Under the pieces are notes generated by a model. The model saw only the letters and a list, made by a program, of their open reading frames with translations, was not told where the DNA came from and searched no databases. The translations under genes were made by a program, and so were the position numbers. Of a stretch of 64,000 nucleotides of DNA, positions 40,644-53,999 are shown in pieces (positions within the stretch are counted from its first letter, which is position 1; each line of letters starts with the position of its first letter). Source of the stretch: an uncultured Oscillospiraceae bacterium (GTDB lineage Bacteria > Bacillota > Clostridia > Oscillospirales > Oscillospiraceae); assembly GCA_947599925.1 (NCBI GenBank), contig CANQFT010000002.1, positions 124,001 to 188,000 on the forward strand, given 5' to 3'.

Positions 40644-42809
40644 GTGTATCTTGCACATCGCGCGGAGGATGGCCGGGAACAGAGCATCCTGGAACATGGC
40701 CGGAACGTAGCCAAACTCTGCGCCGGCTTCGCCGCGCCCTTTGGAGCGGAAAAACTGGCGGAGCTGGCGGGGCTGCTTCACGACATTGGGAAGTATTCCG
40801 GCGCCTTCCAGCGGCGCATCCGCGGGGAGAACATCCAGGTGGACCACGCCACGGCGGGGGCTTGGGAGTGCTTTCAACTGCGACAGGCCGCGGCGGCTTT
40901 TTGCATAGCGGGACACCACGGGCGGTTACCGGAGTTGGGAACCTCTGATGACGGGCCGGAACTGCCGTCTTTGTGCGGGCGGATGAACCGGGCCAAGCAG
41001 GGACGGTTGGAGCCCTATGGCGCGTGGCAAGGGGAAATCACGCCGCCGGAAGCGCCGCCTCGGATGCCGTCGGACCCACTGGATGACTTCTTTTTCATAC
41101 GAATGCTCTACTCCTGCCTGGTGGATGCCGATCATCTGGACACGGAGTGGTTCATGCAGGGAAAGGTGGAACGGGGCGGTGGACTGGACATGGCCGCTTT
41201 GGACCAATGTTTTCAGCAGAAGATACAAAAGTGGTTTCCGCCCAAAGGAGCGCTGAATGAGCGCCGCTGTACTATCCTGGAACGATGTACCGACCAGGGA
41301 GAGCGGCAACCTCCTGGGCTGTTTACATTGACAGTTCCCACCGGCGGCGGAAAAACAACGGCATCTCTGGCTTTTGCCCTGCGCCATGCCAAGACCCACG
41401 GGTTAAAAAGGGTCGTCTATGTGATCCCCTACACCAGCATCATCGAGCAGACGGCAGACACTTTCCGCAAGGTCCTGGGAGATGACGCGGTGCTGGAGCA
41501 TCATTCCAACGTGGACTTCGGCGACGATGAGAGCGGCTCGCCCGACCCGGAAAAGACGCGCAAGAAGCTGGCCGCCGAGAACTGGGACCTGCCGGTGGTG
41601 GTGACCACCGCCGTGCAGTTCTTCGAGTCCCTGTTCGCGAACAAGCCGTCCCGGTGCCGGAAGCTCCACAATTTGGCGGACAGCGTCATCATCTTCGACG
41701 AGGCCCAGACCATCCCCCTGCCCTACCTGCTGCCCTGCGTCCGGGCCATCGCGGAGCTCACCGTGAACTACGGCGCGTCCTGCGTCCTCTGCACCGCCAC
41801 CCAGCCCGCCCTGGGGCCCATGTTCACCGACATTGCGCCGGAGCTGGCTCTCCGGGAGATCGCCCCGGAAATTCCCGCCCAGGTTTTCCAGCGGGTGCGC
41901 TACGAGCACCTGGGCCAGCTGTCCGACGAGGCCCTGGCCCAACGGCTGGGCGGCCATGAACAAGCCCTGTGCATCGTATCCACCCGCAAACAGGCCCAGG
42001 CGGTCTACGACTTGCTGGATCCCGCGGACAGCTTCCACCTGTCCACCCTCATGACGCCGGAGCACCGGCGGGAAGTCCTGGCGGAGATCCGGCGGAGGCT
42101 GGACCCCAGACACCCCCGCCCCTGCCGAGTGGTGTCCACCAGTCTCATCGAGGCCGGAGTGGATGTGGACTTCCCCGCCGTCTACCGGGCTGAGGCGGGG
42201 CTGGACTCCATCGTCCAGGCCGCCGGACGGTGCAACCGAGAGGGAAAGCGTCCCCTGGACGAGAGCCGCGTCTACATCTTCCAGCCCGACAGCAAATACA
42301 TCGCCACCCTGCCCTATTCTATCCTGCGGCCCATAGATGTTATGCACTCCGTCATCCGGGACTGCCCCGCCCTGGACGCGCCGGAGGCCATCGAGCGCTA
42401 TTTCACCGGTCTACATCTGTTTACCGGAGAGGGACTCGACAGCAAACAGATCGTCTCCTTGTTCGAGGCAGGGATGCAGGATCCGTACCATCCCTCTTTC
42501 CCCTTTGCCGAGGCAGCTCAGGCGTTCCATCTCATCGATCGGAACACCCGCGCCGTCCTCATTCCCCGCACGGAGGAGGCCAGGGCGCTGGCCGCCCGCC
42601 TGCGGCGCGGCGAGCGCAGCCGGGCCCTGCTCCGCAAGGCCGGGCAGTTCTCGGTGAACGTGTACGAGGACCACTTCGATGCCCTCAATGCAAAAGGCGC
42701 CCTGGATATTCTGGAGCCGGACCTGGCTGTGTTGACCGACCCGTCTCTGTACAGCGAAACCACCGGCCTTGAACTGTTGGCCGACGACGGGGTGGGAATC
42801 TTCCTGTAA
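40644..42809 (+). CDS. cas3: CRISPR-associated helicase/nuclease Cas3 (type I-C)
   Basis: HD domain (LAGLLHDIGKYSGAF...HATAG), TVPTGGGKTTASLAFALRHA, DEAQ; GTG start after aggaggggg. Confidence 0.95.
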   Translation: MYLAHRAEDGREQSILEHGRNVAKLCAGFAAPFGAEKLAELAGLLHDIGKYSGAFQRRIRGENIQVDHATAGAWECFQLRQAAAAFCIAGHHGRLPELGTSDDGPELPSLCGRMNRAKQGRLEPYGAWQGEITPPEAPPRMPSDPLDDFFFIRMLYSCLVDADHLDTEWFMQGKVERGGGLDMAALDQCFQQKIQKWFPPKGALNERRCTILERCTDQGERQPPGLFTLTVPTGGGKTTASLAFALRHAKTHGLKRVVYVIPYTSIIEQTADTFRKVLGDDAVLEHHSNVDFGDDESGSPDPEKTRKKLAAENWDLPVVVTTAVQFFESLFANKPSRCRKLHNLADSVIIFDEAQTIPLPYLLPCVRAIAELTVNYGASCVLCTATQPALGPMFTDIAPELALREIAPEIPAQVFQRVRYEHLGQLSDEALAQRLGGHEQALCIVSTRKQAQAVYDLLDPADSFHLSTLMTPEHRREVLAEIRRRLDPRHPRPCRVVSTSLIEAGVDVDFPAVYRAEAGLDSIVQAAGRCNREGKRPLDESRVYIFQPDSKYIATLPYSILRPIDVMHSVIRDCPALDAPEAIERYFTGLHLFTGEGLDSKQIVSLFEAGMQDPYHPSFPFAEAAQAFHLIDRNTRAVLIPRTEEARALAARLRRGERSRALLRKAGQFSVNVYEDHFDALNAKGALDILEPDLAVLTDPSLYSETTGLELLADDGVGIFL

Positions 42810-42817
42810 ACAGCCGT

Positions 42818-42843
42818 GGGGCAGATGCCCCAGCATCTGCCCC
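42818..42843. terminator. Hairpin downstream of cas3 / end of crRNA-like RNA
   Basis: ggggcagatgc-ccca-gcatctgcccc, perfect 11-bp arms. Confidence 0.7.
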
Positions 42844-42874
42844 GCGACCAGTTCGCCATACTGTCAATCTCTCA

Positions 42875-42904
42875 ATTTCAACCCACATTCCCAACGGGAA
42901 CGAC
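42875..42904 (-). repeat. Solitary degenerate CRISPR repeat
   Basis: Same 11-nt 3' end TGGGTTGAAAT and 7-bp stem as array repeat GTCGCGCCCCGTGCGGGCGCGTGGGTTGAAAT. Confidence 0.85.
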
Positions 42905-42916
42905 CGTAACGATGTT

Positions 42917-42945
42917 ACTATATCTGTTTCTCATCAAAAAATCAA
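42917..42945 (-). promoter_or_regulatory. Promoter of crRNA-like RNA
   Basis: Minus strand TTGATT (42945-42940)-17-TATAGT (42922-42917). Confidence 0.65.
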
Positions 42946-42965: not shown

Positions 42966-42994
42966 TTGACAAGCAGCGAAGAATATGTTATACT
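42966..42994 (+). promoter_or_regulatory. Promoter of cas5c-8c-7c-4-1-2 operon
   Basis: TTGACA-17-TATACT. Confidence 0.85.
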
Positions 42995-43031
42995 TTCAAT
43001 GTCTCATAAATTTGAAAGAGGTGAGCGAATT

Positions 43032-43685
43032 GTGAGCCAAGGGATCCAAGTGGAGGTGTGGGGGGACTATGCGCTTATCACGCGTCCGGAGCTCAAAGTG
43101 GAGCGGGTCAGCTACGATGTGATGACCCCCTCCGCCGCACGGGGGCTGATCGAGGCAATCTACTGGCACCCCGGCCTGCGGTGGCACATCGACCGCATCC
43201 ACGTGATGAACCCCATCGCCTTCACCAACATCCGGCGCAACGAGGTCAAAGACAAGGTTTTGGCCTCCAACGTGCGCTCTGTGATGACCGGCGGGGACAG
43301 GCCTTTGGCCATCTACACCGGCGAGAGCATCCAACAGCGGGCCTCCATGGTGCTGACCGATGTGCGGTATGTGATCGACGCGCACTTCACCATGACCGAC
43401 AAGGCCGCGCCCACGGACAACGAGGGCAAGTTCATCGACATCGCCCGGCGGCGGCTGGCGAGGGGACAGTGTTATCACCAGCCCTGCTTCGGCTGCCGGG
43501 AGTTCCCCGCCCACTTCCGGGCATGGCCCGGCGGGCCGGTGCCCACCATTCCGGAGACCCGCTCCCTGGGGCTGATGCTCTACGACATGGACTACTCCGA
43601 CCCCCGGAACATCCAGCCCATGTTCTTCATGGCGGAATTGACAAACGGCGTGCTGGAGGTGGCGGGAAAGGAGGCGCTGCGATGA
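43032..43685 (+). CDS. cas5c: Cas5c (Cas5d), pre-crRNA endonuclease of type I-C
   Basis: GIQVEVWGDYALITRPELKVERVSYDVMTPSAARGLIEAIYWHPG; GTG start after gaggtgagcg. Confidence 0.95.
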   Translation: MSQGIQVEVWGDYALITRPELKVERVSYDVMTPSAARGLIEAIYWHPGLRWHIDRIHVMNPIAFTNIRRNEVKDKVLASNVRSVMTGGDRPLAIYTGESIQQRASMVLTDVRYVIDAHFTMTDKAAPTDNEGKFIDIARRRLARGQCYHQPCFGCREFPAHFRAWPGGPVPTIPETRSLGLMLYDMDYSDPRNIQPMFFMAELTNGVLEVAGKEALR

Positions 43686-45448
43686 TCTTACAGGCTTTGT
43701 GCGGCTATTATGACGCCCTTGCCCGACGGGGCCAGGTCACGCCTCCCGGCTGGAGCGTGGCCAAGGTGTCTTTCGCCCTGAACATCGACGAGCAGGGGGA
43801 ACTTCGCGAGGTCATCCCGCTGAAAATCACACCGGAGGGAAGCAAAAAGGAGGTCCCCCAGTCCCTCCAGGTGCCGGAGCAGGTCAAAAAGACCTCCGGC
43901 GTATCCGCAAACTTCCTGTGCGAGAACAGCGCCTACTTTTTGGGCGTGGACAACAAGGGAAAGCCCGACAGAACGCTGCAATGCTTCGAGGCGGCCAAGG
44001 AGCTGCACCAGTCGCTCCTGGCTCCGGTGGACAGCCCCGCGGCCCGGTCAATACTCGCCTTTTTTGACGGGTGGCGGCCAGAGGAGGCGGCGGAGCACCC
44101 GGCCCTTCGCCTCTGTCTGGACGAGATCCTGAAGGGCGCAAACCTGGTTTTCTCGGTAAACGGCCTGTACGCCCAGGAGGACCCCGCCATCCAGGCCGCA
44201 TGGCGGGACCACCGCGCCGCCCAGTCCGCCGACGCGGCATCCGGCCGGTGCCTGGTGACGGGGGAACTCGGCCCCATCGCCCGGCTCCACCCCGCCATCA
44301 AGGGCGTTCGGGACGCCCAGTCCACCGGTGCGTCCCTGGTGTCCTTCAACGCCTCAGCCTTTGAGTCCTACGGCCACGAGATGGCTGACGAGACCGGACA
44401 GGGGCTCAACTCCCCCGTCTCCGAGGAGGCCGCCTTCCGGTACGGCGCGGCGCTGAACCGGCTCATCGCCGACAGGTCCCACCTCCAGTACATCGGGGAC
44501 ACCGCCGTGGTCTACTGGGCGGAGGACGCCGAGCCGCTGTATCAGGATGTGTTCAGCTGCGCCACACTCGGCGGCACATCGGAGGTCATCACCGATCTGG
44601 ACCTGCAGGACGCGGTGAAAAAGCTGGCCCGCGGCGACCCGGTGGACGTGAACGGCGTTCCGCTCCACCCAGACAACCGGTTCTATGTGCTGGGCCTGGC
44701 TCCCAACGCCGCGCGGCTCAGCGTGCGGTTCTTCCTGCGGGACACATTCGGCCAGATGCTGGCCAATGTGCAGGCCCACTATGACCGGCTCTCTATCGTC
44801 AGGCCCGCCTATGAGACAAACGGGGCCCTGCCCCTGTGGAGACTGCTGGGGGAGACGGTCAACCCCAACAGCCGGGACAAAAAGGCGTCCCCACCTATGG
44901 CGGGCGCGGTGGTCCGGGCCATCCTGTCCGGCGGGCCCTACCCCGTCTCCCTGCTGGAACAGACCATGCTGCGCATCCGGGCGGAGCAAAACGTCACCTA
45001 TGGCCGGGCGGCCATTTTGAAAGCGGTCTTTCTGAAAAACAGAGAATTCAATGTGCCAGAGGAGGTATTACGCGTGGAACTCAACGACCAGAGCAACCAT
45101 CTTCCCTATGTGCTGGGGCGGCTGTTCGCCGTGTTGGAGCGGGTCCAGTCCGCCGCCAATCCCGGCCTCAACGCCACCATCAAGGACAAGTATTTCAACA
45201 GCGCCTGCGCCACCCCCGCCACCATCTTCCCCCTGCTGACCAAGCTGTCCCAGAGCCATCTGCGCAAGCTGGAGGGCGGGCTGAAAACCTATTATGAGAA
45301 GTTGATCGGCGATTTGGAAAACCGCATCCACGAGACCCTGCCCGTCCGTCTCTCCCTGGCCGACCAGGGAACGTTCCACCTGGGCTACTACCATCAGGTA
45401 CAGAAATTCTATGAGAAGAAGGACAAAGGAGGAAACGAAAATGTCTGA
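43682..45448 (+). CDS. cas8c: Cas8c (Csd1)
   Basis: 588 aa, between cas5c and cas7c; ATGA overlap; MILQALCGYYDALARRGQ. Confidence 0.93.
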   Translation: MILQALCGYYDALARRGQVTPPGWSVAKVSFALNIDEQGELREVIPLKITPEGSKKEVPQSLQVPEQVKKTSGVSANFLCENSAYFLGVDNKGKPDRTLQCFEAAKELHQSLLAPVDSPAARSILAFFDGWRPEEAAEHPALRLCLDEILKGANLVFSVNGLYAQEDPAIQAAWRDHRAAQSADAASGRCLVTGELGPIARLHPAIKGVRDAQSTGASLVSFNASAFESYGHEMADETGQGLNSPVSEEAAFRYGAALNRLIADRSHLQYIGDTAVVYWAEDAEPLYQDVFSCATLGGTSEVITDLDLQDAVKKLARGDPVDVNGVPLHPDNRFYVLGLAPNAARLSVRFFLRDTFGQMLANVQAHYDRLSIVRPAYETNGALPLWRLLGETVNPNSRDKKASPPMAGAVVRAILSGGPYPVSLLEQTMLRIRAEQNVTYGRAAILKAVFLKNREFNVPEEVLRVELNDQSNHLPYVLGRLFAVLERVQSAANPGLNATIKDKYFNSACATPATIFPLLTKLSQSHLRKLEGGLKTYYEKLIGDLENRIHETLPVRLSLADQGTFHLGYYHQVQKFYEKKDKGGNENV

Positions 45449-46331
45449 ACCCATCAAGAACCGTTACGAGTTCGTCATCCTGTTCGATGTGGAGAACGGC
45501 AATCCCAACGGCGACCCCGACGCGGGCAATATGCCCCGTGTGGACCCGGAGACCGGCTACGGCCTGGTCACAGACGTGTGCCTGAAGCGGAAGATCCGCG
45601 ACTATGTGGAGACGGTCAAGGAGGACGCGGCGGGCTGGCGGATCTACATCAAGGACGGCGTGCCCCTGAACCGCTCCGATGCGGAGGCGTTCGCCCACTG
45701 GAACATCGATGAGAAGACCGTCAAGGAGGCCAAAAAGAAGGACGACACGCTGGACGAGAAGGTCCGGGATTTCATGTGCCAGAACTTTTTTGACATCCGT
45801 ACCTTCGGCGCCGTCATGACCACTTTCGTGAAGAACAACCTCAACTGCGGCCAGATCCGGGGACCGGTGCAGCTGGGCTTCGCCCGGAGCGTGGATCCCA
45901 TCGTGCCCCAGGAGGTCACCATCACCCGCGTGGCCATCACCACCGAGGCCGACGCGGAGAAAAAGGGCACCGAGATGGGGCGGAAGTACATCGTCCCCTA
46001 TGCCCTCTACCGCTGCGAGGGCTATGTCTCGGCCAACCTGGCCCGGAAGGTCACCGGCTTTTCCGAGGACGACCTGGCGCTGCTGTGGGATGCCATCCAG
46101 AATATGTTCGAGTATGACCGCTCCGCCGCAAGGGGCAAGATGGCCGTTCGGGAACTCATCGTATTCAAGCACGACTCCGAGCTGGGCTGCGCCCCCGCCT
46201 GGAAGCTGTTCGACGCCGTCTCCGTCACCCGGAAGGCGGACGTCATCAGCCCCAGGGCCTACGGCGATTATACCGTCGCCGTGGACGAGGCGGCCCTGCC
46301 CGCCGGCGTCACCTGCACCCGCAAGGGGTGA
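45441..46331 (+). CDS. cas7c: Cas7c (Csd2)
   Basis: NRYEFVILFDVENGNPNGDPDAGNMPRVDPETGYGLVTDVCLKRKIRDY. Confidence 0.96.
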   Translation: MSEPIKNRYEFVILFDVENGNPNGDPDAGNMPRVDPETGYGLVTDVCLKRKIRDYVETVKEDAAGWRIYIKDGVPLNRSDAEAFAHWNIDEKTVKEAKKKDDTLDEKVRDFMCQNFFDIRTFGAVMTTFVKNNLNCGQIRGPVQLGFARSVDPIVPQEVTITRVAITTEADAEKKGTEMGRKYIVPYALYRCEGYVSANLARKVTGFSEDDLALLWDAIQNMFEYDRSAARGKMAVRELIVFKHDSELGCAPAWKLFDAVSVTRKADVISPRAYGDYTVAVDEAALPAGVTCTRKG

Positions 46332-47002
46332 GCGCCTTGCCGGAGGAGGACTACCTCGCCCTGTCCGGATTACAGCACTTCGCCTTCTGCCGCCGCCAGT
46401 GGGCCCTGATCCACATCGAGCGGCAGTGGGCGGAAAATCTCCGCACCGTGGAGGGGGACCTGCTCCACCGGCGGGCCCACGACGAACAGCAGACCGAGAG
46501 CCGCGGCGACGTTTTGATCGTCCGCGGCCTTCGGGTCATCTCCCGCCGTCTCCAGGTCCAAGGGGTGTGCGACGTGGTGGAGTTCCGCCGGGACCCCGCC
46601 GGGGTGTCCCTGGCGGGACGGGAGGGGACGTGGCAGCCCTATCCCGTGGAGTACAAGCGGGGCAAACCAAAGGCCTTTGACGCCGACGAGCTCCAGCTCT
46701 GCGCCCAGGCCATGTGCCTGGAGGAGATGCTGCTGTGTTCCATTCCAGAGGGCAGCCTGTTCTACGGCGAGCCCCGGCGGCGCACCAGGGTGATGCTGGA
46801 CGCGGCCCTGCGGGAGCGGGTGGAGGCGCTGGCGGCGGAGATGCGCGCCCTCTACCTCCGGGGGCACACCCCCAGGGCCAAGCCCGGCAAGGGCTGCGCC
46901 GCCTGCTCGCTGAAGGAACTGTGCCTGCCCCAGCTGGCGAAAAGCCAGTCCCCCGCCGCCTGGCTCCGCGCCCACCTGCCCGGAAAGGAGGACGAGCCGT
47001 GA
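46328..47002 (+). CDS. cas4: Cas4
   Basis: YLALSGLQHFAFCRRQWALIHIE...GCAACSLKELCLP. Confidence 0.95.
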   Translation: MSALPEEDYLALSGLQHFAFCRRQWALIHIERQWAENLRTVEGDLLHRRAHDEQQTESRGDVLIVRGLRVISRRLQVQGVCDVVEFRRDPAGVSLAGREGTWQPYPVEYKRGKPKAFDADELQLCAQAMCLEEMLLCSIPEGSLFYGEPRRRTRVMLDAALRERVEALAAEMRALYLRGHTPRAKPGKGCAACSLKELCLPQLAKSQSPAAWLRAHLPGKEDEP

Positions 47003-48030
47003 GGAAATTTCTCAACACCCTGTTCGTCCTCAGCGAGAACAGCTATCTGGCCCTGGAGGGCGAGACGGTGGTGGTGCTCGCTGAGGAGGAGAAGCGGGGC
47101 CAGTTCCCCCTCCACACCCTGGAGAACATCCTCTGCTTCTCCTACAAAGGGGCCAGTCCCGCCCTGATGGGCAAGTGCGCCCGTGAGGGTGTGAACCTGT
47201 GCTTTCTGACCCCACGGGGACGGTTCCTGGCCAGAGTCTGCGGGGAAAATCCGGGCAACGTCCTGCTCCGCCGGACCCAGTACCGTGCGGCGGACGACCC
47301 CGCCCAGAGCTGCCGCGTCGCCCGGTGCTTCCTCTTTGGCAAGGTCTACAACAGCCGCTGGAGCATCGAGCGCACCCGCCGGGATCACGCCCTGCGTGTG
47401 GACGACGAAAAGCTTGGGCGGGCCTCCTCCCTGCTGGCGGACAGCTTGCCCGCCTTTCTGGAGGAGAGCGATCTGGACTCCCTCCGGGGACTGGAGGGCC
47501 AGACCGCCGCCGTCTACTTCGACGCCTTTGACGCCCTCATTCTGAACCAGCGGGAGACCTTCTCTTTCACCGGTCGCTCCCGCCGTCCGCCTCTGGACCC
47601 GGTGAACGCCCTGCTGTCCTTCGCCTACACCCTGCTGGCCAACGCCTGCGCCGGGGCGCTGGAGAGTGTGGGGCTGGACGCCTATGTGGGCTTCCTCCAC
47701 CGGGACCGGCCCGGACGGACCTCTCTGGCGCTGGACATGATGGAGGAACTGCGCCCCCTGTTCGCCGACCGGTTCGTGCTGACCCTCATCAACAACCGGG
47801 TGCTGCGGGAGGAGCACTTCGACCGGCAGCCCGGCGGGGCAGTGTGGCTCAACGACGAGGGCCGGAGGCTCTTTCTCTCCGCGTGGCAGAAGCGGCTGGC
47901 GGAGCCCATCACCCATCCGTATCTGAAGGAAAAGCTGGCCTGGGGACTGGCGCCCTATGTTCAGGCCCTGCTGCTGGCCCGGTATCTCCGGGGCGACCTG
48001 GATGATTACCCGCCATTTTTGTGGAAGTGA
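46999..48030 (+). CDS. cas1: Cas1 (I-C)
   Basis: MRKFLNTLFVLSENSYLALEGETVVV; GTG start overlapping cas4 stop. Confidence 0.96.
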   Translation: MRKFLNTLFVLSENSYLALEGETVVVLAEEEKRGQFPLHTLENILCFSYKGASPALMGKCAREGVNLCFLTPRGRFLARVCGENPGNVLLRRTQYRAADDPAQSCRVARCFLFGKVYNSRWSIERTRRDHALRVDDEKLGRASSLLADSLPAFLEESDLDSLRGLEGQTAAVYFDAFDALILNQRETFSFTGRSRRPPLDPVNALLSFAYTLLANACAGALESVGLDAYVGFLHRDRPGRTSLALDMMEELRPLFADRFVLTLINNRVLREEHFDRQPGGAVWLNDEGRRLFLSAWQKRLAEPITHPYLKEKLAWGLAPYVQALLLARYLRGDLDDYPPFLWK

Positions 48031-48039
48031 GGCGGTCCT

Positions 48040-48330
48040 ATGCTGGTGCTCATCACCTATGACGTAAATACAGAGGACGCCGCCGGCCGGAAGCGTCTGC
48101 GGCAGGTGGCAAAACAGTGTGTCAATTACGGCCAGCGGGTGCAAAATTCTGTGTTCGAGTGCCTGCTGGACCCGGCGCAGTACAAACTGCTCCAGGCCAA
48201 ATTGCTGGAGATCATCGACCGGGAAAAGGACAGTCTGCGGTTCTATCAGCTTGGGGACAAGTATCAAAATAAGATCGAGCACTTCGGCGCGAAGGCGTCC
48301 TACGAGCCGGAGGGGGTGTTGCTGGTATAG
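48040..48330 (+). CDS. cas2: Cas2
   Basis: MLVLITYDVNTEDAAGRKRLRQVAKQCVNYGQRVQNSVFECLLD. Confidence 0.97.
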   Translation: MLVLITYDVNTEDAAGRKRLRQVAKQCVNYGQRVQNSVFECLLDPAQYKLLQAKLLEIIDREKDSLRFYQLGDKYQNKIEHFGAKASYEPEGVLLV

Positions 48331-48505: not shown

Positions 48506-50110
48506 GTCGCGCCCCGTGCGGGCGCGTGGGTTGAAATCAGATCCACCACGGTCAAATAGTAGCCCGTGTAACGTCGCGCCCCGTGCGGGCGCGTGGGTTG
48601 AAATTGCCCCGGCGGACTCCAAAAGCGGGTCGGCTCCGTCGCGCCCCGTGCGGGCGCGTGGGTTGAAATCGCGAAGCTGATGCGTCCGGCCTCCTCTGCC
48701 TCGGTCGCGCCCCGTGCGGGCGCGTGGGTTGAAATGAGGTCATAGCCCTCGATGTCCAGGTCGGCGATGGTCGCGCCCCGTGCGGGCGCGTGGGTTGAAA
48801 TCGTACAGAGGAGAGGCGCGGAGCGGCTCCCAGTGTCGCGCCCCGTGCGGGCGCGTGGGTTGAAATTCGATGGCGGGCACCTCAAAATGAAGGAGGAGGT
48901 CGCGCCCCGTGCGGGCGCGTGGGTTGAAATCTTGGTCGGCCAGGGTGGTGATGCTCCGGCTCTGTCGCGCCCCGTGCGGGCGCGTGGGTTGAAATTGGCG
49001 CATGACCTCAGCAAAGTAATACTGGAACTGCAGTCGCGCCCCGTGCGGGCGCGTGGGTTGAAATAAACCACTTTGAAAAATTAGAACAAACCGTTCCGTC
49101 GCGCCCCGTGCGGGCGCGTGGGTTGAAATATATAGGCGCTCGGTCAGCTCCTCCGGTGTGACGCGTCGCGCCCCGTGCGGGCGCGTGGGTTGAAATTTTG
49201 TTGCTCTCTGTTAGAGGGGCGCCGAAACAGGTCGCGCCCCGTGCGGGCGCGTGGGTTGAAATTACCCGTGGGGGGTGTGGGTGACGGCTTATGCAGTCGC
49301 GCCCCGTGCGGGCGCGTGGGTTGAAATTGGCAGGGTAGCGGCCCGGACTTTGGGTTTGCCGTCGCGCCCCGTGCGGGCGCGTGGGTTGAAATATAGGAAT
49401 GCACAAAAAAAATGTTTACCTGGGAGTCGCGCCCCGTGCGGGCGCGTGGGTTGAAATGAACGTATCACCGCTGATAGCGTCCATGCACAACGTCGCGCCC
49501 CGTGCGGGCGCGTGGGTTGAAATAGCAGGATGTCCTCTCGAGCAAGCACCACGGCAGTCGCGCCCCGTGCGGGCGCGTGGGTTGAAATTGGATTTGCTAG
49601 AATAGCATTGTCGGGAGGGCAAGGTCGCGCCCCGTGCGGGCGCGTGGGTTGAAATAAGGTTTTTGTTCACCTTGCACAAAAACAGCTTGGTCGCGCCCCG
49701 TGCGGGCGCGTGGGTTGAAATGAGCCCGGCGACCACCACCGCTTGCCGGGCAAGGTCGCGCCCCGTGCGGGCGCGTGGGTTGAAATAGTTAGAAAGGAGG
49801 GATATATATGGACTGGCAAACGTCGCGCCCCGTGCGGGCGCGTGGGTTGAAATCTACATCCCCGTTGGGAGCCGCGGGGATTTCACCGGTCGCGCCCCGT
49901 GCGGGCGCGTGGGTTGAAATGATGATTTACACCGCCGTGGAAAACGCTATGACTATGTCGCGCCCCGTGCGGGCGCGTGGGTTGAAATATGAGTTCCTGG
50001 GGCACACCGATGATCTCCACCTCGTCGCGCCCCGTGCGGGCGCGTGGGTTGAAATGACCTGGGGGCGGAGTGCCAGGACAAGACCTTCGTCGCGCCCCGT
50101 GCGGGCGCGG
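48506..50110 (+). CRISPR. CRISPR array 1, 25 repeats (last truncated), 24 spacers of about 32-37 nt
   Basis: Repeat GTCGCGCCCCGTGCGGGCGCGTGGGTTGAAAT (32 nt); starts 48506, 48573, 48638, 48704, 48770 ... 50024, 50089(truncated). Confidence 0.98.
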
Positions 50111-51147
50111 GGATCAGTTACACCCTCAACGCGGACGGGACCACTCTTGTCCCCAGTTTCGTGGACGGGGACGGGGTGAAGCTGGACGATGACGGGATGC
50201 CGGAGAACGCTATGTTCTACCTGGACATCCGCAACGGGAAGGCGTACTTCCGCGGGAATATTTACGCGGAGAACGGATACTTTGCCGGTGTAGTCAAGGC
50301 CACGGACTTCCTGACGCAAGGCGGCGAGAGTATGCTGACCGGCGGGAAGTTCAACTCGAAGTACCTGGACCTGGGCAAGATCCAGATTGACGGCGAGACC
50401 GGGAACATCACCATGACCGGGGACATCAACATGGGCGGCGCCAGCCGGATCGACCTGGGGAGCATCGTGATAGACGGGGCAAATCGGACCATTCGGTTCA
50501 CCGGCAAGGCCGGGTCGATCCTCTGGGGCGAGAGCGCGCCGGTGAAATACCAGTTTGGTGCGTCCGCGGCGGGGCCGTGGCACGACACGATGGAGGCGGG
50601 GGACAAGTACCGGCGGGACAGTCTGGACGGCGGGGCAAGCTGGGGCGAGCCCTATCAGTTCCGAGGGACGGACGGGAGGAACGGAAGTCCAGGGCGGGAC
50701 GGGACGGTGGACTATTCGGAGGTCAACCGGATCCTGAAGGAGACCTACGGCATCACCACCACCTACATCACCGAGGGGACCATCGGCTCACCGGTCATCC
50801 GGGGCGCGGAGATCTACGGGTGCAACATCTACGCCGGGGATGGACAGGGCATGGTCGCCAGCATGATGGGCGACGGGTTCTACATCCACGACGCGGACAT
50901 CGACACGCCAAAGATCGCGCTGGAAAGCATGAGCAACGGCAATATCCTCCGCCTGGTGTTGGGGGCCGGACCGAGAGGAGACAGTTCAATGTTGGGGCGA
51001 GGTCAAATCAATAAAACAAAATCGGGAATGGCAGTTGTATATATTGACGACAATGCAAAACCAAGCGGGTTCGAGTTTCACGACGACGGGAAAATAGTAG
51101 TGCGCGGTGATATTGTCAACCTGACGGTCCCAGCGGTATTTGGATAG
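50111..51147 (+). pseudogene. C-terminal part of a phage tail/minor structural protein
   Basis: ISYTLNADGTTLVPSFVDGDGVKLDDDGMPENAMFYLDIRNGKAYFRGNIYAENGYFAGVV...; reading frame enters from the truncated repeat with no native start. Confidence 0.7.
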
Positions 51148-51889: not shown

Positions 51890-52033
51890 GGGAATTACCT
51901 CCTTGAATATGGGATGGATACATTTTACCACTTTTCGGGAGAAAAGACAATGCCCGGAAATTGCGCGATATGTCCGGGTGAGATGGCACGCAAGGAAGGG
52001 GGAATAGAAGCGGGTTCAATATTTGGCATTTGC

Positions 52034-52732
52034 CCAGACCGAGCAGGGCGCCGCCCAGCAGACGGGGCCGCCACAGGAGGCCAGGTACTCCCAGGACGAC
52101 AAGGAGGACAGGGAGACCCAGCGGAAGCTTGCCGGGAAAGGGTTGCAGAAAGCTGGGCGGCGTGGTATGATAAAGACCACACGGCAGGAATGGCGGCAGA
52201 TCCAAAGCGCACAGATGCAGAAGTATGCCGGGATGGAGGAGAGCGACATCCCGGAGCAGGACTACGTGTTCGCCCATGATCTTTTCTACGTTATCCGCAA
52301 CTATGGACTGGATACATTTACCGTAATGAAGCGCCTGGATCCTGCCACCAATCAGCAGGACGTCAACCAAATCATTAGGGGGAAAAAATATGAAGATCAC
52401 GGACAATTCGGCGTTGACGATTGGGAAATTGATGGGTCGGATCCAAGCGACGGACGCAGACGCCGTAGTCGTGGGCTTGACACTGGAGACGGAGGAGAAC
52501 GCCCAGGAGTTCTTCACATGGTACAAGAGTCTGACGGAGGACCCGACGCCCCAGGCGTGCTTCGAGAAAGCAGTAGAGATTTGGGAGGCCAACGGCCCGT
52601 GGCCGGAGGAGACGAACGGGGAAGCCTGACCGAGCGGGAGACCGGCGGCGGAGAGGAGTTTTCGCGGGAGCCCGATGAAGCCTACGTCCGGGAGCTGCGG
52701 GTCGCGCCCTACGCGGGCGCGTGGGTTGAAAT
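52034..52732 (+). repeat. 699-bp module copy 1, ends in variant CRISPR repeat
   Basis: Roughly 90% identical by eye and the same length as 53301-53999. Confidence 0.9.
52390..52629 (+). CDS. 79-aa protein of unknown function (module copy 1)
   Basis: MKITDNSALTIGKLMGRIQATDADAVVVGLTLETEENAQEFFTWYKSL...; agggggaaaaaat RBS region; paralog at 53657. Confidence 0.7.
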   Translation: MKITDNSALTIGKLMGRIQATDADAVVVGLTLETEENAQEFFTWYKSLTEDPTPQACFEKAVEIWEANGPWPEETNGEA

Positions 52733-53196: not shown

Positions 53197-53656
53197 ATGT
53201 ACGGCGGGATGAATATCTTTGCCGGGACGGACTGGGAGGGGGAGATGGAGGCCCTGGGTCTGCTGGTGGGGCCCATGACCGATGAGCAGATCGTCAAAAG
53301 CCAGACCGAGCAGGGCGCCGCCCAGCAGACGGGGCCGCCACAGGAGGCAAGGTACTCCCAGGACGACAAGGAGGACAGGGAGACCCAGCGAAAGCTTGCC
53401 GGGAAAGGGTTGCAGAAAGCTGGGCGGCGTGGTATGATAAAGACCACACGGCAGGAATGGCGGCAGATCCAAATCGCCCAGATGCAGAAGTATGCCGGGA
53501 TGGAGGAGAGCGACATCCCGGAGCGAGATTATGTGTTCGCCCATGATCAGTTCTACCTTATCCGCAACCATGGACTGGGTACATTTGATGTTACACTGCG
53601 GCTCGACCCGGCGACAGAACAAATGGCTGTCAATCGAATCATTAGGGGGAATACAA
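53197..53656 (+). pseudogene. Phage-like protein fragment upstream of 79-aa ORF
   Basis: MYGGMNIFAGTDWEGEMEALGLLVGPMTDEQIVKSQTEQGAAQQ...RLDPATEQMAVNRIIRG; frame enters from last array-2 repeat; paralogous segment in copy 1. Confidence 0.45.
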
Positions 53657-53999
53657 ATGAAGATCACGGACAATTCGGCGTTGACGATCGGGAGACTGAT
53701 GGGCAGGATCAAAGCGACGAACGAGGAAGCCGTGGCCGTGGGCCTGACGCTGGGGACGGAGGAGAACACCCAGGAGTTCTTCGCATGGTACAAGAGTCTG
53801 ACGGAGGCCCCGACACCGAGGGCGTGCTTCGAGAAAGCAGTAGAGATTTGGGAGGCCAACGGCCCGTGGCCGGAGGAGACGAACGGGGAAGCCTGACCGA
53901 GCGGGAGACCGGCGGCGGGGAGGAGTTTTCGCGGGAGCCCGATGAAGCCTACGTCCGGGAGCTGCGGGTCGCGCCCTACGCGGGCGTGGGGGTTGAAAT
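53301..53999 (+). repeat. 699-bp module copy 2, ends in variant CRISPR repeat (53968-53999)
   Basis: Same length as copy 1, substitutions only. Confidence 0.9.
53657..53896 (+). CDS. 79-aa protein of unknown function (module copy 2)
   Basis: MKITDNSALTIGRLMGRIKATNEEAVAVGLTLGTEENTQEFFAWYKSL... Confidence 0.7.
   Translation: MKITDNSALTIGRLMGRIKATNEEAVAVGLTLGTEENTQEFFAWYKSLTEAPTPRACFEKAVEIWEANGPWPEETNGEA

Follow-up and report, generated by a model that had tools for sequence, protein, structure and literature searches.

A single-repeat guide gene predicted to direct type I-C Cascade to the promoter of its own operon in an uncultured Oscillospiraceae bacterium and other Clostridia

In 2023, Shmakov et al. 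(NAR 51:8150, a study cited in PMC10651486) reportedly predicted by computation solitary repeats whose spacers are in part complementary to cas promoters, chiefly in type I systems. The element described here, located beside a type I-C cas operon of an uncultured Oscillospiraceae bacterium, resembles those elements in being crRNA-like, in having a stand-alone repeat and in being directed at a cas promoter. Autorepression by a mini-CRISPR, CreR, is described for types I-B, I-E and V-A in two reviews (PMC12737573, PMC13131331), and the CreR logic of crRNA competition and relief by anti-CRISPRs in the same reviews and a third (PMC12948488). The present element is like CreR in that a crRNA-like RNA gene lies beside the cas operon, has a short seed-side match to the cas promoter and would let the effector repress its own operon. 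It differs from CreR by traits that, on sequence comparison, are its own: (i) the system is of type I-C, with Cas5c as the presumed processing nuclease and no Cas6, (ii) the gene consists of a single degenerate repeat and a hairpin instead of a repeat-spacer-repeat mini-CRISPR, and (iii) its targets fall into two placement classes. It is possible that I-C cases were already predicted in the 2023 study of Shmakov et al. or in the CreR work.

Other known systems share part of this design. CreA of the CreTA module is a degenerate repeat RNA that directs Cascade to a promoter by means of a short match; either one or two repeats can be present in a CreA gene (PMC9458426). The degenerate repeat and the short promoter match are common to both, whereas the target here is the cas operon itself and, unlike in CreTA, no toxin gene was noticed between cas3 and cas5c of the window on reading the gap. 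In type II-A, Cas9 is autoregulated by a natural single-guide RNA (Workman 2021, as cited in PMC10651486), which is similar in that an effector represses itself via a natural guide, but Cas9 is a class 2 effector and its RNA is unrelated. Lastly, RacrIC1 is a solitary I-C repeat-like RNA, Racrs being phage-borne inhibitors that engage Cas proteins (PMC10651486); the present element also has a solitary I-C repeat but is chromosomal, lies within the cas locus and carries a matched guide.

The window (the whole stretch of DNA analysed, 64,000 nucleotides) contains an intact type I-C locus, cas3-cas5c-cas8c-cas7c-cas4-cas1-cas2, identified with NCBIfam models over cut-off, together with an array of 32-nt repeats whose canonical sequence is GTCGCGCCCCGTGCGGGCGCGTGGGTTGAAAT. 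The gap between cas3 and cas5c measures 222 nt, and the putative guide gene, made up of a promoter, a degenerate I-C repeat, a short guide and a hairpin, occupies its minus strand at 42945-42812. By position, the features are as follows.

40644..42809, plus strand: cas3 (HD nuclease and helicase; NCBIfam cas3_core and cas3_HD over cut-off), convergent with the guide gene
42812..42849, minus strand: strong hairpin closing the guide gene, also just past the cas3 stop; terminator-like, with a weak T run in this genome
42858..42874, minus strand: guide of 17 nt matching the cas5c promoter (15 pairing positions; 6 and 12 free)
42875..42906, minus strand: solitary degenerate I-C repeat, with a 7-bp stem CGTTCCC-GTT-GGGAATG followed immediately by the 11-nt handle TGGGTTGAAAT
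42917..42945, minus strand: predicted guide-gene promoter TTGATT-17-TATAGT (consensus search), ending about 10 nt before the repeat
42966..42994, plus strand: predicted cas5c operon promoter TTGACA-17-TATACT (consensus search, 11/12, extended -10)
42990..43006, minus strand: guide target (protospacer-like), from -11 to +5 of the predicted transcription start, overlapping the -10 box
43007..43009, minus strand: PAM-position triplet TTA, 5' of the target (direct reading; relatives have mostly TTC, some TTT)
43032..43685, plus strand: cas5c, GTG start, first gene of the targeted operon (NCBIfam TIGR01876, E 1e-45)
43691..48330, plus strand: cas8c, cas7c, cas4, cas1c and cas2, the remainder of the I-C operon (NCBIfam models over cut-off)
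48506..50055, plus strand: main CRISPR array with 24 identical repeats (repeat reading), the source of competing crRNAs

The guide and the hairpin are separated by about 8 nt, and the whole guide element folds with a z-score of -3.2. The hairpin 3' of the guide has no handle, i.e. there is no second repeat as in a mini-CRISPR. A terminator consensus search of the window returned no match, and an Rfam search of the element gave a microRNA match that was below the gathering score and was judged spurious. In sequence, the window Cas5c comes nearest to I-C Cas5 proteins with solved structures (PDB 8dex, 7kha, 3vzi), which are annotated as pre-crRNA processing endonuclease or Cas5, and it is presumed to be the pre-crRNA nuclease of this system; the contacts of the I-C Cascade with the handle have been described (PMC7684278). 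Elsewhere in the window, the main array is interrupted within a repeat (...GTGCGGGCGCG followed by GGGATCAG) and runs directly into a long ORF at 50161-51147 (region 50086-51147), and a second array stretch with the main-array repeats restarts at about 52700. The segments 52023-52730 and 53290-53999 are near-duplicates, both ending in a variant repeat (GTCGCGCCCTACGCGGGC...) unlike the array consensus.

The original prediction held that the segment following the solitary repeat matches the cas5c promoter at 15 of 17 positions, and a direct re-reading confirmed the match at the same coordinates. The guide (minus strand 42874-42858) reads TGAGAGATTGACAGTAT and its target (minus strand 43006-42990) reads TGAGACATTGAAAGTAT; within the 17 nt they differ at positions 6 and 12 only, after which mismatches follow at 18, 19, 21 and 22 and the similarity fades. 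Likewise, the target does cover the predicted start and the -10 box of the cas5c operon, as had been proposed. This match is far beyond chance. Over the 128,000 positions of both strands of the window, the next best 17-nt match reaches 12/17, and when positions 6 and 12 are left out every other position has at most 11/15. In the 1.86-Mb genome, the only site within 2 mismatches over the 15 pairing positions, besides the target, is the guide itself, and sites at 3 mismatches are no more frequent than with a reversed-pattern control. Furthermore, none of the 31 canonical array spacers reaches 13/15 against the same promoter region, the maximum being 12/15.

Relatives of Cas5c were gathered from species genomes (80 loci), from the family (30 loci) and from metagenomes (80 loci), and the stretch upstream of cas5c was scanned for solitary repeat 3' ends and then for matches to the next 17 nt. 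In a first scan, in which all 17 positions (6 and 12 included) had equal weight and neither a PAM nor a register was required, a local match of 13/17 or better was obtained for 33 of the 42 distinct repeat-guide candidates, against 12 of 252 shuffled guides. Pooling with the metagenome loci gave 45 distinct elements in 28 unrelated guide families from Clostridia and their relatives; in each of them an individual guide matches the cas promoter of the same locus. TT at the PAM position was a condition of inclusion for the first 38, and positions 6 and 12 were left out of the scoring of all 45, so that the counts of the first scan (33 elements) are the unbiased ones. Since 44 other distinct elements show such a promoter match, with guides that differ, it represents a conserved element and not a coincidence. 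In almost all elements a sigma-70-like guide promoter ends near the repeat and a strong hairpin, often with a T run, follows the guide. The repeat stems are unrelated in sequence, yet in most elements they are paired and end exactly at the 11-nt handle, which would be consistent, by analogy with I-C biology, with structure-guided processing by Cas5c.

The carriers include the cultured strains Pseudoflavonifractor capillosus ATCC 29799 and Desulfosporosinus fructosivorans (L098 and L109, respectively). A phylum-wide sample of 40 further Cas5c loci, examined with a stricter filter, yielded one element (L170), so that the element seems to be concentrated in Oscillospirales-like Clostridia and Desulfosporosinus. 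The Nitratidesulfovibrio vulgaris, Thermus, Tistrella, Rhizobium and Treponema plasmid I-C loci had no convincing element. Several loci have peculiarities of their own. Consecutive solitary repeats stand upstream of cas5c in L045 (two) and L115 (three), with one promoter-matching guide each. In L024, L025, L031, L102, L103 and L105, the nucleotides that follow guide position 17 reverse-complement positions ~4-13 of the guide, so that self-folding of the guide could compete with target pairing, a feature absent from the window element. In L042, L045, L046 and L049-L052, a short conserved leader-ORF-like stretch that contains a strong GC hairpin (GGCGGCCGG...CCGGCCGCC) precedes cas5c in place of a short 5' UTR, with guide and target further upstream; this leader is a possible second layer of control.

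The mismatches of the window guide recur in a six-nucleotide register. In the first scan, they fell at position 6 in 24, at position 12 in 28 and at position 18 in 27 of the 33 elements, with 0-5 mismatches at each remaining position of 1-17 and a random level beyond 18. The pooled set gave 34/45, 36/45 and 36/45 at the same three positions, which is compatible with the 75% mismatch that a base under no constraint should show (p 1.0, 0.50 and 0.50, respectively), and positions 6 and 12 therefore seem to be disregarded and not under selection for a mismatch. Counting one element per guide family leaves the register unchanged (23, 21 and 22 mismatches of 28), and all 15 pairing positions are matched in 24 of the 45 elements. 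In type I Cascades, bases are flipped out in the Cas7 filament, and free sixth and twelfth bases are what this arrangement would predict.

Related guides were also compared with one another. At the pairing positions, 43 changes were paired (guide and target together) versus 13 one-sided, a count that is descriptive, as the 25 element pairs overlap. For example, L016 and L046 have their repeat in common but not guide positions 1 and 5, and their two targets show the very same differences; on the other hand, the guides of L029, L090, L099 and L114 differ at position 6 only, and do so freely in guide and target alike. These data bear on the possibility that the element is a relic, i.e. a self-derived spacer or a copied promoter fragment that is now functionless. 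The TTC next to most targets fits a spacer acquired from the cell's own promoter, as does the match of L042 and L045 up to about position 23. Nevertheless, the element is found in 28 guide families, and the paired changes, which keep the pairing positions while positions 6, 12 and 18 onward drift randomly, require ongoing selection; moreover, an origin by self-acquisition is compatible with a present function. A functionless relic is thus very unlikely, and a guide kept in use by Cascade is the reading retained here.

The triplet at the PAM position was TTC in 21, TTT in 9, TTA in 2 and TCG in 1 of the 33 elements of the first scan, the single TCG element (L069) being probably false. The reservation attached to the original prediction, namely that TTA is not the canonical I-C TTC, stands in so far as TTA is confirmed and rare (2 of the 45 pooled elements, the window and L061), and is softened by the conserved sites taken together (TTC 30, TTT 13, TTA 2). 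It could be argued that Cascade does bind, with working TTC or TTT elements in the relatives, and that the window copy is weak or inactive owing to its TTA: TTC is the I-C PAM reported for Xanthomonas oryzae (PMC8406640), and TTA occurs in these two sites only. Against this, perfect 15/15 pairing would have decayed under long inactivity, and L061 also has TTA with 14/15 pairing positions matched. We consider this improbable for the window; as its 15/15 pairing is intact, the guide there appears to be still used, perhaps as a weaker brake. Array spacers compared with a phage collection gave one relative, the terminase of Faecalibacterium phage Mushu (33/37, flank CGC), too diverged to indicate a PAM. 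Scans of viral contigs with the seed patterns returned a single hit, L282; this hit was produced by a pattern shifted by one base from the register and loses similarity past about 25 nt. In neither comparison did a protospacer yield the PAM of this strain. In the phage collection, two short fecal 'Bacteriophage sp.' records (MT838203.1 and MT839601.1) contain a similar I-C repeat many times over (12 places and 9 pieces), and are either phage-borne arrays or mis-assigned bacterial contigs.

The position of the element follows that of the promoter. Where the cas3-cas5c gap is at least 110 nt, it is present in 32 of 44 loci, the other 12 having no matching element; where the gap is shorter than 110 nt, it is present in 3 of 33 loci (L084, L088, L116), about 2.3 kb upstream of cas5c and before cas3, and in these three the operon must begin before cas3. 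The element tracks the promoter rather than any given neighbour gene. Two classes of target were distinguished relative to the predicted start: start-proximal targets, at -11 to +35 (21 elements, including the window, all on the minus strand), and upstream targets, at about -70 to -39 (24 elements, 14 on the minus and 10 on the plus strand). These placement figures, uncorrected for the ancestry shared among loci, depend on consensus predictions of -10 boxes and starts, the promoter search having been centred on each target. The strand bias (21/21 vs 14/10; Fisher p 0.0007, likewise uncorrected for ancestry) would be the orientation that a polymerase roadblock close to the start calls for, while occlusion further upstream would tolerate either strand.

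Placement also bears on two readings in which Cascade does not repress at the DNA. In one, the element is an antisense RNA acting on the 5' end of the cas5c mRNA without Cascade, which would suit a guide whose sequence complements the coding strand and, in the window, reaches over the first bases of the transcript. However, only about 6 nt of the window target would be transcribed, 24 of the 45 targets are placed before the predicted start and so outside the transcript, 10 are on the other strand, and such pairing would need neither TTN at the PAM position, nor a six-nucleotide register, nor a Cas5c-type repeat; an antisense role is hardly credible. In the other, promoter-bound Cascade activates rather than represses, at least at sites upstream of -35, and indeed the 24 sites at about -70 to -39 occupy a frequent activator position. 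On the contrary, the window site lies over the -10 box and the start, where a bound complex is incompatible with open complex formation, protein on the PAM side or the guide side would be expected to reach the -35 box in the upstream class, and the demonstrated relatives CreA and CreR repress (PMC12737573, PMC13131331). Activation is accordingly judged highly improbable, and repression by Cascade remains the preferred reading.

Under this reading, a small crRNA-like RNA would be transcribed from the minus strand at 42945-42812 and cut by Cas5c at the stem base of the repeat; the usual 11-nt handle would remain, and the processed RNA would begin with UGGGUUGAAAU and continue with the guide. Cascade (Cas5c-8c-7c) loaded with this RNA would be steered by the first 17 guide nucleotides, with the 6th and 12th bases flipped out, to the -10 box and start of the cas5c-8c-7c-4-1-2 operon. 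A full spacer has ~34 nt, and as pairing ends at position 17, the R-loop would stay short, and Cascade would thus occupy the promoter without efficient call-in of Cas3 and with escape from self-cutting. The operon that encodes Cascade would hence be under negative feedback, lifted once other crRNAs occupy Cascade or an inhibitor disables it; such relief by anti-CRISPRs or crRNA titration is published for other subtypes and is extended to this I-C case by analogy. The proposal that Cascade and this RNA bind and repress their own operon, put forward from the window alone, is supported as the best explanation of the covariation, the register, the PAM-position motif, the hairpin and handle and the promoter placement. 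On this sequence evidence, autorepression of the CreR type, with a short R-loop and relief by competing crRNAs or an inhibitor, is very probable.

Concerning its origin, the guide may have been a spacer taken from the host's own promoter, trimmed by drift at positions 6, 12 and 18 onward with the rest under selection; TTC at most sites and the first-scan match of L042 and L045, which still extends to about position 23, fit such a source. More tentatively, and with rather less than even confidence, these guide genes could form a broad, hitherto undescribed branch of I-C self-regulation: single-repeat, hairpin-ended guide genes of Clostridia with two blocking modes, namely a start-site roadblock, always on one strand, and occlusion of the region immediately upstream of -35, which lies between the divergent promoters of guide and cas genes and where a single bound Cascade could damp both the cas genes and the guide. 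How strongly the brake acts may then depend on the quality of the PAM (TTC, TTT or TTA).

Together, the elements form a natural record of the six-nucleotide register of Cascade, with five bases kept, the sixth ignored and an end at 17, and would provide an evolutionary measure of the pairing sufficient for stable binding without self-destruction. This measure could be of use in the design of I-C CRISPRi and in predicting the responses of I-C systems to anti-CRISPRs. For these Clostridia and their relatives, the finding would extend RNA-guided self-repression to type I-C, among the commonest CRISPR subtypes, with guide-target pairs that are testable in dozens of genomes.
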